Shown: in pieces, positions 58,107 through 64,000 of the stretch
Layout: every line of letters starts with the position of its first letter
Numbering within the stretch: position 1 is the stretch's first letter
From: Ignavibacteria bacterium
Lineage (GTDB): Bacteria > Bacteroidota > Ignavibacteria > Ignavibacteriales > SURF-24
DNA length: 64,000 nucleotides
Reading direction: 5' to 3'
Assembly (NCBI GenBank): GCA_025612375.1
Contig: JAAXKN010000001.1
Location: 290,669 to 354,668, forward strand
Notes under the pieces: model-generated
Told to the model about the DNA's origin: nothing
Database searches by the model: none
The model's input: the letters and a program-made list of their open reading frames with translations, nothing else
Program-made: the position numbers and the translations under genes

Positions 58107-58382
58107 ATGGAACTGTTTTGGCTGTTTCTCATATGGGTATTCTTACTGTACTTTATCCGGATACACATGGAGTTGTATTCCTATAGAAAGTATTTTAGTC
58201 AGCACAACGATATTTATGTTCCTTCATACAATGAGCTGGCTAAGACGGATCACTGGAGCATTCGTACTGCGCAGTACATATTCACCCAGTTCAGAAGAAC
58301 TAACAAGAACGTAAAAGAGCACCTTTCCACAACGGAAAGCCTTGCTCCGGTATATAAAAAGAAGTTGCTTCCAATGTCCTAA
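58107..58382 (+). CDS. Small single-helix membrane protein
   Basis: 91 residues from the ATG at 58107, chosen because GGGAGG lies 6 bases upstream; a TTG at 58089 is inside that site. One helix covers residues about 2-20 (LFWLFLIWVFLLYFIRI), followed by a basic, aromatic-rich tail (YSYRKYFSQHN ... PVYKKKLL). A strong terminator follows. No known family. It stands between the kinase and the Cas6-like gene on the same strand. Confidence 0.7.
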   Translation: MELFWLFLIWVFLLYFIRIHMELYSYRKYFSQHNDIYVPSYNELAKTDHWSIRTAQYIFTQFRRTNKNVKEHLSTTESLAPVYKKKLLPMS

Positions 58383-58388
58383 AGCCAG

Positions 58389-58460
58389 AGGCAAAGAAGA
58401 TATTAAACAGTTTTACTATACCCGTTTTACTGTTTAGTTTTCTTCTTTGCCTTTATTCTT
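58389..58460 (+). terminator. Long hairpin terminator
   Basis: A 12-bp outer stem (58389-58400 with 58441-58452) and an 8-bp inner stem (58404-58411 with 58429-58436), followed by TTATTCTTA. It begins 7 bases after the stop of the small membrane protein and should separate it from the Cas6-like gene. Confidence 0.8.
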
Positions 58461-58465
58461 ACCTG

Positions 58466-58565
58466 GCACGCGTGCGCGTGGGCTTAATTGCCCGGGGACA
58501 AATATTTTATATGGGTTGATAATAATTGTAAAATATTTTAGCTTGATATTTTAGTTATTACAATT
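58466..58565 (+). promoter_or_regulatory. Palindromes and inverted repeat upstream of the Cas6-like gene
   Basis: Three elements lie in the 133 bases between the terminator and the ATG: the perfect palindrome GCACGCGTGC (58466-58475), a GGGC/GCCC hairpin with a TTAATT loop (about 58480-58493), and the inverted repeat AATTGTAA (58524-58531) / TTACAATT (58558-58565). The last could form a hairpin in the leader RNA. No function is known; a promoter must lie here. Confidence 0.35.
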
Positions 58566-58593: not shown

Positions 58594-59394
58594 ATGCGTT
58601 TAGTATTAAAATTGAAGGCCATTAAGGAAAAAGAATTCCCGTATAATTATAATGCGCTTGTTTCAAGGGAAATTTCTAATCTTCTCGGTTTTGAAACTCC
58701 GGAATTTAAGAGCTATCTGCAGTCTAAAGGCTACCGGGCAACGGATAAACCGTTCGGGCTTTTTACCTTCAATTTGCATTTTGAGAATGTATTCCATAAA
58801 AGAGAGACTCTTTTCCTGCGCAGCAACAATGCGCACCTGAGTATTTCTTTCCCTCTGTTAAACGACTATATAAACAATTACATTATTGACAAGCTGCCGG
58901 AGAAGGAAATTATAATTCAGAAGGGGCAGCTGCAGACAACTTTCCTGATAAGCAGAGTTGAAACAGTACAGGAACCTGTGTTCAGGGATGACATAATCTT
59001 TGTACCCAAGTCCCCTCTTATGCTGCCCGGTAAAAAGATGATTAAAAACGTCCTGAGGAATGTTTACTATACTTACAGGGACGACATACGCGTGGTAAGC
59101 AAACTCATAAAAGAGGACCTCTGCAGAAAGTACGAATCCATTTACAACTCTCTGCCAGCAAACGATTACATATTCTTCCAGTGGGACAGGAACTACATTT
59201 ACGCCAATGAGAAGACTACAAAGAAGCTAAAACCGAAATTCATGCTCGAATCCAACCAGAAGAATTTTTCTGTCCTTGGCAACATGGTGCCCTTTAGAAT
59301 AAAGGGTAATCCCGATTTAATTAAAGTAGGCTATCAGTGCGGATTCGGAAAGCTGAATTATCTTGGTTTCGGTTTTAGTGAGTTTCAGGATTAA
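58594..59394 (+). CDS. Cas6-like RNA-binding protein, catalytic residues missing, orphan
   Basis: 266 residues with the two-RAMP-domain Cas6 pattern. The N-terminus is MRLVLKLKA then FPYNYNALVSREISNLL, followed by FKSYLQSKGY and GLFTFNLHFEN (first ferredoxin-like domain), the mid-protein IIFVPKSPLML, and a C-terminal glycine-rich end VGYQCGFGKLNYLGFGFSEF. Set beside Pyrococcus furiosus Cas6, the catalytic Tyr31, His46 and Lys52 positions are Ser28, Gln43 and Gly55 here (by-eye alignment). No other cas gene and no array lies in the window. It may be a non-cutting crRNA- or RNA-binding protein with a new role, or a relic. Confidence 0.78.
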   Translation: MRLVLKLKAIKEKEFPYNYNALVSREISNLLGFETPEFKSYLQSKGYRATDKPFGLFTFNLHFENVFHKRETLFLRSNNAHLSISFPLLNDYINNYIIDKLPEKEIIIQKGQLQTTFLISRVETVQEPVFRDDIIFVPKSPLMLPGKKMIKNVLRNVYYTYRDDIRVVSKLIKEDLCRKYESIYNSLPANDYIFFQWDRNYIYANEKTTKKLKPKFMLESNQKNFSVLGNMVPFRIKGNPDLIKVGYQCGFGKLNYLGFGFSEFQD

Positions 59395-60424: not shown

Positions 60425-62089
60425 TTATTTCTGCGGATTTATGCTGAAAACCCGCGGTGCATTCTGGGGGGTATCTATGCGGCTGCCGTTTATCCTTAAA
60501 AGTGTGTCTTTGAGCACGCCAAGTGAGCGCTGGCTTAAGAGGTCAATTTTTACAAGCCCCATCTCATCTATTGAGTACATGTCCGGCTGCGTAATTATGA
60601 GTCCCAGCCCCTTGTTCTTTGCATATTCAAGCGCCACATAGTTCGTAATAGGCCGGGCTGTTATAACGATACCGCTCGGGTGGACGCTTAGATGCCGGGG
60701 GAAATCCGCCAGGCGCACGGCAATACGGATTATGGAGCGCCATGGTTCAGAGTTGAAATCAAGGGACTTTGTTTCAGGGAACTTCTCTGCAATATTCATG
60801 AGGTTCCCGGCGCTTGTCCATGGTATAAACTTGCTATAGCGTGAGATCTCCTCGCCGGAGATGCCGAAGGCCTTGGCTACTTCCCTGAAGGCAGAGCGGG
60901 CGCGGAAGGTTACGGTAGTGGAAATCATTGCCACATTGCCGTAGCCGTACTTATCGTATATATATTTTACGATCTGGTCCCTTTCCTGCCAGGAGAAGTC
61001 AAGATCCACGTCAGGCGGGCTTTTGCGCCCGCGGTTTAAGAACCTTTCGAAATAAAAGTTGTGATATAATGGGTCCACCTGTGTAAAATCCAGGCAATAG
61101 GATACAAGGCTGTTGGCAGCAGAGCCGCGCCCGATGGAAACCATGCCTCTTTTGCGCGCCTCCCTTATTACGTCCCAGATAATGAGGAAGTAATCGGCAT
61201 AGTTTAACTCCTCAATTACCTCCAGTTCATGCTGAAGTCTCTTTATGGCTTTTTCCGTAATAGGCTTATATTTTTCCTCAAGGCCGCGGAAGGCAACTTT
61301 CCAGAGGTATGAGAATGCGGTTTCTCCCGGGGGGAGGGAAAACACCGGAAATTTCTGGGTTCCCAGCTCAAGCTCCACGTTGCAGCCTCTTACAATCTGC
61401 TCAACGTTCCACAGGGCCTCGGGCAGAGCCTTCCACAGTTGTTTCATTTCCTCCGGGGACTTTATGCAGTATTCCTCATCGGCCAGGCTTTCAGCGGGGA
61501 GATTATGGAGAGTGGAATTTAATCTTATAGCCGTAACCACCCTGTGCAGAAGGTAATCCTCCGGCTTCAGGAAATAAGACGGGTGTGAGGCCACAACCTG
61601 AAGGGCGTTAGCCCGTGCAAAATCGTACAACGCCCTTGTCTTTTTCTTATGCCTTTCGGTTACTATGAGTTCAGCAAAGATGTTTTCTTTCCAGCAGCCG
61701 CAGCCTTTGATCCTGCTAAGGAGCTTCAGGGAAGACGAGACGACGTATAGATTCCTGAGGTCGGTACTGAATACCTCCTCAAGAGAGAAGTCCTCCTTCA
61801 GGTTTCTTGCCGTAATGAGCCTGCAGAGCTGCGAATACCCGTCATTATTCCTTGCAATAAAGAGCGCACTGATGTCCTGATCCTTCGGATCATCAATGAG
61901 TGCCCCCAGTATCGGCTTAAGGTTTTCAGCAAGGGCCTTCTTTGCAAACTGTATGAGCCCGTACATATTATTCCTGTCTGCAAGGGCAGCATAGGTGCTT
62001 CCTGAAGCCTTTGCGTGCGCAATAAGCTCGTCTAAGGGTATTGTACCCTGAAGAATAGAATAATATGAATGATTATGAAGCGACAACAT
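60425..62089 (-). CDS. DnaE-like DNA polymerase III alpha subunit, short form
   Basis: 554 residues, about half the usual length. An N-terminal PHP domain (LHNHSYYSILQGTIPLDELI) is followed by the polymerase core with SIGRGSAANSLVSYCLDFT, the catalytic Asp pair in PPDVDLDFSWQERDQIV, and the third Asp in GLVKIDLLSQRSLGVL. It ends only ~32 residues later, so fingers, clamp-binding and OB regions are missing. No remainder is seen in any frame downstream. It lies after dinB, recalling ImuB-ImuC (DnaE2) mutagenesis pairs. It is either a truncated remnant or an unusual minimal polymerase. Confidence 0.85.
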   Translation of the reverse strand: MLSLHNHSYYSILQGTIPLDELIAHAKASGSTYAALADRNNMYGLIQFAKKALAENLKPILGALIDDPKDQDISALFIARNNDGYSQLCRLITARNLKEDFSLEEVFSTDLRNLYVVSSSLKLLSRIKGCGCWKENIFAELIVTERHKKKTRALYDFARANALQVVASHPSYFLKPEDYLLHRVVTAIRLNSTLHNLPAESLADEEYCIKSPEEMKQLWKALPEALWNVEQIVRGCNVELELGTQKFPVFSLPPGETAFSYLWKVAFRGLEEKYKPITEKAIKRLQHELEVIEELNYADYFLIIWDVIREARKRGMVSIGRGSAANSLVSYCLDFTQVDPLYHNFYFERFLNRGRKSPPDVDLDFSWQERDQIVKYIYDKYGYGNVAMISTTVTFRARSAFREVAKAFGISGEEISRYSKFIPWTSAGNLMNIAEKFPETKSLDFNSEPWRSIIRIAVRLADFPRHLSVHPSGIVITARPITNYVALEYAKNKGLGLIITQPDMYSIDEMGLVKIDLLSQRSLGVLKDTLLRINGSRIDTPQNAPRVFSINPQK

Positions 62090-62143
62090 CAGTTTTTCCG
62101 TATCAGTTTTTCCGTATCAGTTTTTCCGTATCAGTTTTTTCCG
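62088..62143. repeat. 14-bp tandem repeat, four copies, between dinB and the DnaE-like gene
   Basis: ATCAGTTTTTCCG plus T is repeated at 62088, 62102, 62116 and 62130 (the last copy has one extra T). It covers the dinB stop and runs up to the ATG of the next gene. On the minus strand each copy contains GGAAAAACTGA. Confidence 0.95.
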
Positions 62144-63273
62144 ATGGCAAGGGCCGTATAGCCATATTTATCCCTGAGCTCATTAACAGCACAGAGCATT
62201 CTTTTTCTTCTTGATATATCGGCATCAAAAAGGCTTTCCTGTTCGGCAGATTCGCAGAAGTTGCTTAAGTGAATGCCTATCAGGCGCACTGCAACTCTTC
62301 TCTGGCAGGCTTTTATAAAAAGGTCCAGCGCCGTCTTAAAGATCACCTGGTCGTCATCGGTCGGAATGATTGTTTTGGATCTTACGACTGTATTAAAGTC
62401 TGAGTAGCGGAGCTTAATGCTCACGGTAGACGTCTGCCACTGCTTATTGCGGAGCGACTGGCAGATCTGCCCGTTGAGGTCAAAGAGAACCTTCTCCACC
62501 CTTTTCTTATCCGAGACGTCCTCACTGAATGTATTTTCCTTTGATATGCTTTTTCTTTCAGATGCAACCGTAAGGCAGTCGTTCCCCCCTCCGTTGGCCT
62601 TATTCCACAGGTCAAGCCCGTGCTTGCCGAAGGCTGTCGTCAGGTAGTCCGCCGAAAGATTTGCAATATCCCCCACTTTATAAAATCCCTTGCTGTTAAG
62701 CTCTCTGAGCGTGACCTTTCCGACCCCGGGCAGAGCCTCGACGGGCATTCGTCTTAAGAATTCCTTCTCCATTCCGGGTACGACGAAGGTAATTCCGCGG
62801 GGCTTCATAAAGTCCGAGGCAACCTTGGCAATTGTTTTATTGGTTCCTATTCCAATTGAGCACGGGAGCGAAAGCTCACTTAAGACCTTCTCCTGAAGCA
62901 TACGGGCAAGCACGAGGGGAGGCCCGAAAGTCCCGCTGCATCCGGTAAAATCCATATAGAACTCGTCTACTGAAGCCTGCTCGATAAGGGGCGCATAACC
63001 TTCCAGAAGCCGTTTTACGGCCCTGGAATAATTTGTATACTCCTGGTGATGCCCGTGGAGGTAAATTCCCTGGGGGCAGAGCCTGAATGCATCGCGTATA
63101 GGCATGGCCGAATGCAGGCCGTAGCGCCTTGCCTCATAGGAGCAGGCGGCAACGACTCCCCTTCCGTGCGGATCGCCGCCAACGATAACGGGCTTTGCCT
63201 CCAAAGAGGGGTCGAGTATGCGCTCAACCGATATGAAGAATGCATCTAAGTCCAGGTGAAATATTGTACGCAT
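62131..63273 (-). CDS. dinB: Y-family DNA polymerase (DinB/Pol IV-like)
   Basis: Translesion polymerase of 380 residues. The metal Asp is in HLDLDAFFISVERI, followed by CSYEARRYGLHSAMPI and the Asp-Glu pair in EQASVDEFYMDFTG. The helix-hairpin-helix block MPVEALPGVGKVTLRELN is followed by the little-finger domain. A clamp-binding motif such as QESLFD may be present (AEQESLFDADI, about residue 345). It lies 4 bases after the DUF72 gene and just upstream of the DnaE-like gene, so the three may form a damage-tolerance operon (inference). Confidence 0.92.
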   Translation of the reverse strand: MRTIFHLDLDAFFISVERILDPSLEAKPVIVGGDPHGRGVVAACSYEARRYGLHSAMPIRDAFRLCPQGIYLHGHHQEYTNYSRAVKRLLEGYAPLIEQASVDEFYMDFTGCSGTFGPPLVLARMLQEKVLSELSLPCSIGIGTNKTIAKVASDFMKPRGITFVVPGMEKEFLRRMPVEALPGVGKVTLRELNSKGFYKVGDIANLSADYLTTAFGKHGLDLWNKANGGGNDCLTVASERKSISKENTFSEDVSDKKRVEKVLFDLNGQICQSLRNKQWQTSTVSIKLRYSDFNTVVRSKTIIPTDDDQVIFKTALDLFIKACQRRVAVRLIGIHLSNFCESAEQESLFDADISRRKRMLCAVNELRDKYGYTALAIGKN

Positions 63274-63277
63274 TTTC

Positions 63278-64000
63278 TCAGCCTGCCAGAGCTATTGGAG
63301 TAAGCCTCGGAAACGCCTTTAAGGCATTCAGAGGCACCGTAATCTTATTCCTTCCTCTAAGCATATGCATCATTTCAAAAGCATTCACAATCCCATAGGT
63401 ACTGGGATGGTTATTCATTACAACGTAAACATCCTTCACACTGTCGTAGATTTCTTTTATCTTATTTTCAATTTCCACCAGCTCGCCCGGCGAATAAAGA
63501 TACTTGTACCTTTCACTTGCCTGCTCATAGGTCTGACTTTTCCCGTAGTTATTCACAGACTGTTTCCATGCTTCCGTATTGCGCCCGTGGAAACGGAAGT
63601 AAGCACGGCTGTTTGTAATAACCGGTTCAAAAGCAACTGAGCGCCCGAGCTGCGGCTGGTCAATCGTGCAAAGCGAGATATCCAGCTCATGCAGAAAGTG
63701 ATATGCCTCCTCGTTATTCCATGAGGAATGCCTTACTTCCAGAAAGCGGTTACAGCCTCCGAAGATGTCGTTTAAGAGCCTTACGTGCTCAAGTGCCGCA
63801 GAGTTAAAGGCAAATGAATAAGGAAACTGTATGAGAAGTCCTCCCAGGCGCCCGGCAGCGGCAAGAATGTCCAGATTCGCCTGAACGGCTTTTATGTTTG
63901 CCCCTTCAAACTTCCTTGCGTGTGTAAAATCCTGGTGCAGCTTTACGGTAAAAAGAAAGTTATCGGCCTTCTCAACCTTCTCCACCCAGCCTGCAGCCGC
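63278..64000 (-). CDS. DUF72 family protein (5' cut by window edge)
   Basis: The frame is open to the window edge, so the N-terminal ~60 residues are missing; a GTG at 63985 is not the real start. The TIM-barrel-like DUF72 pattern is visible: FLFTVKLHQDFTHARKF, GGLLIQFPYSFAF, FLEVRHSSW, AYFRFHGRN, LYSPGELVEIENKI and the C-terminal VVMNNHPSTYGIVNAFEM. Family function is unknown. Close spacing to dinB suggests co-transcription. Confidence 0.88.
   Translation of the reverse strand, partial: AAAGWVEKVEKADNFLFTVKLHQDFTHARKFEGANIKAVQANLDILAAAGRLGGLLIQFPYSFAFNSAALEHVRLLNDIFGGCNRFLEVRHSSWNNEEAYHFLHELDISLCTIDQPQLGRSVAFEPVITNSRAYFRFHGRNTEAWKQSVNNYGKSQTYEQASERYKYLYSPGELVEIENKIKEIYDSVKDVYVVMNNHPSTYGIVNAFEMMHMLRGRNKITVPLNALKAFPRLTPIALAG

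Follow-up and report, generated by a model that had tools for sequence, protein, structure and literature searches.

The locus encodes a Cas6-family protein

The window analysed here is a stretch of 64,000 nucleotides from the genome of an Ignavibacteria bacterium. Within it, the frame at 58594–59394 is unbroken, begins with ATG and specifies a protein of 266 amino acids. This gene and the features around and within it are:

58107..58382, + strand: small upstream protein of 91 amino acids with an N-terminal stretch resembling a membrane helix, beside the triad-less Cas6 gene in three genomes
58390..58451, + strand: inverted repeat between the two genes, GGCAAAGAAG...CTTCTTTGCC and then T-rich, read from the sequence
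58514..58553, + strand: conserved upstream element GGTTGATAATAATTGTAAAATATTTTAGCTTGATATTTTA, promoter-like, 40 nt, with a further 40 nt between it and the start codon
58594..59394, + strand: Cas6-family protein, 266 amino acids, catalytic triad lost (profiles, alignment, dN/dS, AF2 fold)
58675..58677, + strand: Ser28 codon (TCT), where P. furiosus Cas6 has its catalytic Tyr31; the clade has Ser in 3/3 members
58720..58722, + strand: Gln43 codon (CAG), in the place of catalytic His46; Gln, Lys or Ser in the clade
58756..58758, + strand: Gly55 codon (GGG), in the place of catalytic Lys52; Gly, Gly or Arg in the clade
59341..59376, + strand: Gly-rich loop GFGKLNYLGFGF, residues 250–261, a Cas6 signature in which the Glu-Lys of the family is replaced by Lys-Leu

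An earlier note on this DNA had likened the protein to Cas6 from its fold pattern, an SPL block and a Gly-rich C-terminus, and the likeness is borne out on each count. The protein scores above cut-off with both the NCBIfam Cas6 equivalog model TIGR01877 (74.5 bits, cut-off 58.65, E = 1.5e-20) and the Pfam Cas6_C model PF01881 (65.5 bits, cut-off 23), it matches PADLOC Cas6b (E = 1.7e-31), and its sequence matches the solved Cas6 chains 5yi6 (E = 1.3e-6), 3pkm, 3i4h, 3qjj and 3ufc. The SPL block lies at residues 140–142, and G250, G252, N255, G258 and G260 of the C-terminal GxGxxxxxGxG loop are retained, in a part of the model where pLDDT is low. The AF2 model, which is of moderate confidence (mean pLDDT 71.7, with residues 209–230 and 254–266 below 50), covers both Cas6 domains as two tandem RRM-like (RAMP) domains and aligns end to end with Cas6 crystal structures, over 233 residues at 3.3 Å; a prediction without two RAMP domains, which the note had named as evidence against Cas6, was not obtained. 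The best structural matches are PfuCas6nc (3ufc, Z 19.6) and PhCas6nc (3qjj, Z 19.2), with other Cas6 proteins nearly level (5yi6, Z 18.6; the active 3i4h, Z 18.1). The protein is strongly basic (pI 9.45, net charge +12), and R76, R178, R199, K210, K211 and R235 are invariant in its clade. We conclude that the product is a genuine Cas6-family protein; the label of Cas6 endoribonuclease is withheld, since the catalytic features and the association with CRISPR that would justify it were looked for and, as described below, are absent.

The catalytic triad is lost in all members of the clade

A set of 46 homologues from related genomes was collected and aligned, and 44 relatives fall outside the clade of the window protein. 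At the columns of the P. furiosus triad these relatives carry Tyr in 44/44, His in 42/44 and Lys in 42/44. None of the three orthologues that make up the clade has the triad. The window protein reads Ser-Gln-Gly at Ser28/Gln43/Gly55, the replacement of Tyr31, His46 and Lys52 that had been noted before; the orthologue from a genome of the same genus (G001, 85% identity) reads Ser-Lys-Gly, and that from a genome of the same family (G004, 45% identity) reads Ser-Ser-Arg.

Among 41 positions that are near-invariant in the family, 32 are conserved in every one of the three clade members and six are lost from every one. All three triad positions are among these six, for which our own arithmetic gives a probability of about 0.002 under random loss. 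Because the triad accounts for three of the six positions lost throughout, with 32 of the 41 held, the alignment points to loss of the active site with retention of the scaffold and not to general decay. Nor is a catalytic His recovered elsewhere, the other finding that was to have told against triad loss: judged from secondary structure, the clade-specific histidines H62 and H68 lie in or after a strand and well away from the old active-site positions.

Loss of the triad is no proof of lost cleavage, since Sulfolobus Cas6 cuts RNA without the histidine (PMC3652601). The window protein might likewise still be a nuclease with a shifted active site in which positively charged residues cut RNA, given that active-site positions vary among Cas6 lineages and that the clade-invariant arginines and lysines listed above are at hand. 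However, SsoCas6 retains the catalytic lysine, where the clade has Gly, Gly and Arg; the His position is unconstrained (Q/K/S); and H62 and H68 sit, by predicted secondary structure, at the far strand end from the old site. Since the lysine retained by SsoCas6 is likewise missing here, we rate a shifted-site nuclease lower than the reading that we favour, a non-cleaving RNA-binding protein, and regard it as unlikely.

The host genome lacks the CRISPR components searched for

The genome that contains the window (G000; 5.2 Mb, 140 contigs, 100% complete by the tool's estimate) was searched for CRISPR components, with G001 serving as a positive control in which the same searches returned one Cas1, three RAMPs, one Cas3 over the cut-off and 59 repeats, PF03787 matching the csm3/4/5 genes. 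G000 has a single Cas6, the triad-less copy. It has no Cas1 and no match to the RAMP family PF03787 (type III), and its Cas3-core matches are all below the cut-off, as they are in every genome; no true Cas3 was found. No array of the G001 repeat was detected either, although an array with an unrelated repeat, if broken up, could be missed in an assembly of 140 contigs. The genome of the second-closest orthologue, G004, was equally empty for RAMP, Cas3, Cas1 and the G001-repeat array. An array finder returned no array in the whole window, and the last 20 kb of the window hold neither a cas gene nor an array, as the earlier note had remarked of the gene's surroundings. Effectors, Cas1 and arrays were thus found neither near the gene nor in the genome, and the search of the rest of the genome for arrays and interference genes, which the note had advised, turned up nothing but one repeat-like 30-mer.

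This isolated 30-mer (contig C14 of G000, 2780–2809; L126) is identical to the G001 repeat at 26/30 positions. No array or cas genes occur in the 20 kb read around it, and it is not shared with G001 outside the arrays of that genome; it is probably a relic of a former array, or else an ectopic repeat. A CRISPR repeat beside the gene itself was considered and rejected, the best local matches to seven Ignavibacteria repeats being 16–18/30 and no better than elsewhere in the window. Phage origin was likewise rejected, as three scans of viral contigs (with the clade, with a broad Cas6 alignment and with intact Cas6) gave no relatives.

G001 carries its triad-less copy (L031) together with a type III-A (L032) and a type I-B locus (L033), each of which comprises an array and effector genes along with its own intact Cas6. 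Since G000 and G004 are empty and the G001 loci own an intact Cas6, no local system has the protein of the clade as its processing enzyme or needs it in that capacity.

It might nonetheless serve CRISPR in trans, binding crRNA uncut from an array elsewhere or one borne by a plasmid or phage, and acting as chaperone or inhibitor. The RNA binding of a non-catalytic Cas6 paralogue (PMC3727216), the two CRISPR loci of G001 and the lone 30-mer in the host genome are in keeping with this. Effector genes and an array were, however, not found in G000 or G004, the solitary site has the isolated setting described above, and the clade stands apart from the CRISPR-linked Cas6 of G001 in the tree. The earlier note's proposal that the protein binds crRNA from a distant array is not supported for this genome, in which no Cas1, RAMP, Cas3 or G001-repeat array was found, and would be possible in G001 only. 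We consider service in trans improbable, a little more so than a shifted-site nuclease, and return to a protein that binds RNA independently of CRISPR.

The gene probably forms its own transcription unit

The inverted repeat at 58390..58451 has a stem that is identical in G001 and absent in G004. It was not listed by the terminator scan, which has a loop limit of 8 nt, but it probably represents the terminator of the small upstream gene, which would make cas6 a transcription unit of its own; an operon with the small gene was rejected on account of this probable terminator. The element at 58514..58553 looks like the gene's own promoter. It contains TTGATA and TAGCTT separated by 17 nt, a spacing that is the same in the window and in G004, and 31/40 of its positions are identical between the two, the best 24-mer matching at 21/24 as against at most 19/24 in 120 shuffles. 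Its 24-nt core has a single match within three mismatches in its own genome, before cas6, and a regulon sharing the element was rejected for this reason. A conserved RNA hairpin in the 5′ leader was also rejected: the window element folds with z −3.2, whereas the orthologous elements give z −0.8 and −1.1. Because these do not fold well, the element is treated as promoter-like DNA. Rfam returned nothing near the gene, and elsewhere a sub-threshold match to plastid clpP. Together with the orthologues and the dN/dS values given below, the conserved element supports and reinforces the earlier view that an intact frame with its own regulatory region is probably expressed.

The 91-amino-acid gene adjoins the triad-less cas6 in G000, G001 and G004, even though the wider neighbourhood in G004 is completely different; the G001 copy is syntenic with the window. 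Proteins of this membrane-helix family, with the core RKY..QHNDIYVPSY, occur in 5/5 genomes of the taxonomic family and match no Pfam or NCBIfam model. The constant adjacency in changed surroundings would fit a partnership in which the small membrane-anchored protein tethers RNA, for example, or holds Cas6 at the membrane. Set against this, the small gene is present without Cas6 in G002 and G003, G001 has a second copy elsewhere, and the probable terminator splits the two genes. A functional tie is tentative because the gene occurs without Cas6 in those two genomes, and as an account of the locus such a partnership is doubtful, slightly more so than service in trans; an RNA-binding protein acting without this neighbour is preferred.

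On the other side of cas6, the minus-strand region 60425–63985 contains a 554-amino-acid fragment with PHP and DNA polymerase III alpha sequence, which lacks the 3′ portion of a complete DnaE, adjoining a DinB-family polymerase and a DUF72 gene. The G001 homologue of the fragment is equally short (560 amino acids) and is followed by a LexA-like ORF. The region looks like a truncated DnaE2-type SOS cassette.

The triad-less gene is under purifying selection

Between the window and G001, the dN/dS of the gene is 0.056 (dN 0.086, dS 1.53), a rough value since dS is near saturation at about 1.5, yet far below 1. For the same pair of genomes the neighbouring asd and aspartokinase genes give 0.043 and 0.044 and other long neighbouring genes 0.079–0.174, and one pair of triad-intact Cas6 genes (L023/L041) gives 0.121. 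The gene is therefore under strong purifying selection and is not decaying. This estimate contradicts the notion that the gene is a remnant of a vanished CRISPR locus on its way to decay, a notion that the lost triad, a host that has lost or never had CRISPR and the lone repeat-like site might have suggested; since the frame is unbroken in three species, the most distant at 45% identity, and the promoter-like element is conserved, we regard it as very improbable beside a maintained RNA-binding protein.

The exact clade has three known members, and those with a named record come from assembled genomes of uncultured bacteria; the named relatives of the window genome are Ignavibacteria/Bacteroidota MAGs. 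In trees drawn without Pyrococcus rows, the clade falls among the Cas6 proteins of Ignavibacteria and apart from the CRISPR-linked Cas6 of G001. Adjoining it, with bootstrap support of 89–92, is an orphan Cas6 from G038 (L043:8248–9042) in which His is replaced by Lys and Lys by Asp, and which lies between what reads by eye as a glutaminyl-tRNA synthetase-like gene and a SpoVG gene.

Triad loss recurs among Ignavibacteria and goes with orphan status

A sample of 61 Cas6 homologues from the class Ignavibacteria was examined with flanks of up to about 10 kb per side. Its members were picked up through their resemblance to the window protein, and G001 proteins served as tblastn queries for cas genes, so that the sample is not exhaustive. 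The triad is broken in 12 of the 61: the window (SQG), G001 (SKG), G004 (SSR), L043 (YKD), L049 (YVE), L154 (YNK), L156 (QYN), L157, L158 and L159 (RKD), L161 (KEE) and L165 (PQN). Cas genes or arrays lie alongside none of these 12, as against 41 of the 49 intact copies (Fisher p = 7e-8, the true strength being lower owing to relatedness). The remaining eight intact copies comprise four near a contig end, L166, judged by eye to be a type III-B locus that escaped the queries, and three solo copies (L039, L041 and L140). The intact-triad Cas6 of L041, L140 and L145 adjoins a sixA-like gene, in L145 with a Cas9-like ORF about 3 kb away; these three are possible trans-acting processing enzymes.

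Mapping the triad states on the tree requires at least three changes, and the strongly supported branches force at least two; triad losses thus arose at least two to three times. Descent of all broken triads from one old family was rejected marginally (p-AU 0.044). The clearest separate loss is L165, beside its intact sister L164. The group L156–L161 is conserved across two genera and has a fixed non-CRISPR neighbourhood in the main genus. Members of this RKD/KEE/QYN orphan lineage are at L157:9666–10478, L158:6286–7098, L159:9387–10199, L161:9449–10264 and near position 10066 of L156; in genus g16, represented by four genomes (L157, L158, L159 and L161), the orphan lies between the genes for a Wzi-like outer-membrane protein and a TPR protein. 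Unlike the window host, the genomes with other broken copies have a Cas1 match somewhere, in G016 and G058 a fragment only. The window's clade is strongly basic, and some of the other broken copies have turned acidic, for which reason a single function for all the orphans need not be assumed.

A probable exaptation for RNA binding without cleavage, outside CRISPR

We think it fairly likely that the window protein is a Cas6 that has been exapted to bind RNA without cutting it and that works independently of CRISPR. That it belongs to the family, that the triad is gone from all three orthologues, that selection is purifying, that the CRISPR parts searched for are absent and that a conserved upstream element is specific to the gene are direct observations; from our analysis we infer that the protein binds RNA, does not cleave it and plays a regulatory part. 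A Cas6 copy of a class 1 (type I/III) system would have parted from its cas locus and lost the Tyr-His-Lys site. It would have kept its RNA-binding fold of two domains, together with the Gly-rich loop and the strongly basic charge, and selection would now preserve it, under a promoter of its own, as a protein that binds RNA and does not cut it. The cleft between the two RRM-like domains, where RNA binding has been described for PhCas6nc (PMC3727216), would most likely grip a short and specific stretch of RNA, the model for such a grip being the non-catalytic Pyrococcus Cas6 that holds the 5′ part of a repeat. The gripped RNA might be stabilised, masked or regulated. Recruitment to another RNA was the second of two readings in the earlier note and is the better of them, though our analysis found no target.

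More broadly, Cas6 may have escaped CRISPR repeatedly in the phylum Bacteroidota to become a family of host RNA-binding proteins, RNA chaperones or regulators, with the window protein as its best constrained case and in CRISPR-less genomes; we put the chances of this wider proposal at about even. Non-catalytic Cas6 is already a known kind (PfuCas6nc and PhCas6nc, paralogues in CRISPR-bearing archaea). What is new here is that the host is CRISPR-less, that the constraint is strong and that the loss recurs, and the open literature, with subscription papers outside the search, held no report of an orphan dead Cas6 in CRISPR-less bacteria. If the reading is correct, a dead Cas6 maintained by strong selection in bacteria where no CRISPR system could be detected would be a clear example of a Cas protein converted to a housekeeping role in RNA binding, and the idea can be tested because orphan status correlates with loss of the triad across the class Ignavibacteria. 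Six broken-triad copies were tested against the Cas6 equivalog model and all pass, and because of this such genes are likely to be annotated 'CRISPR-associated endoribonuclease Cas6'; the presence of Cas6 alone would then wrongly suggest CRISPR.

Comparison with known Cas6 systems

The closest parallels are PfuCas6nc and PhCas6nc (3ufc; 3qjj/3qjl/3qjp), which have a Cas6 fold called non-catalytic or inactive, as the window protein has the fold without the catalytic residues. The Pyrococcus hosts of these proteins carry CRISPR systems, whereas none was found in the window host. The identity to the window protein is about 20%, and the Ignavibacteria copies lie within the local Cas6 radiation. 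PhCas6nc binds RNA (PMC3652601, PMC3727216), and repeat RNA is bound by a non-catalytic Cas6 paralogue (PMC3727216).

The Cas6 proteins of the type I-B (L033) and type III-A (L032) loci of G001 are of the same family and length as the window protein and have the Gly-rich loop, at about 35% identity, but they retain Tyr-His-Lys and sit with full cas operons and arrays, neither of which holds for the window protein. SsoCas6 (Sso1437) resembles it in lacking the canonical histidine, but is active nonetheless, keeps the lysine, is dimeric and processes CRISPR RNA (PMC3652601).

A further orphan family (L066–L074), in Cesiribacteraceae (L066) and the Bacteroidota family f37, likewise has no triad, and no cas genes lie beside the copies read. 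Its first member lies at L066:5554–6444 and scores above the Cas6 equivalog cut-off, the family, which also includes L067–L074, is 57–67% identical across 8 sampled genomes, and ychF adjoins the Cas6-like copy in the three that were read (L066, L067 and L072). It differs from the window's clade in its separate origin, in the deletion of the His-bearing segment and in its neighbour gene.
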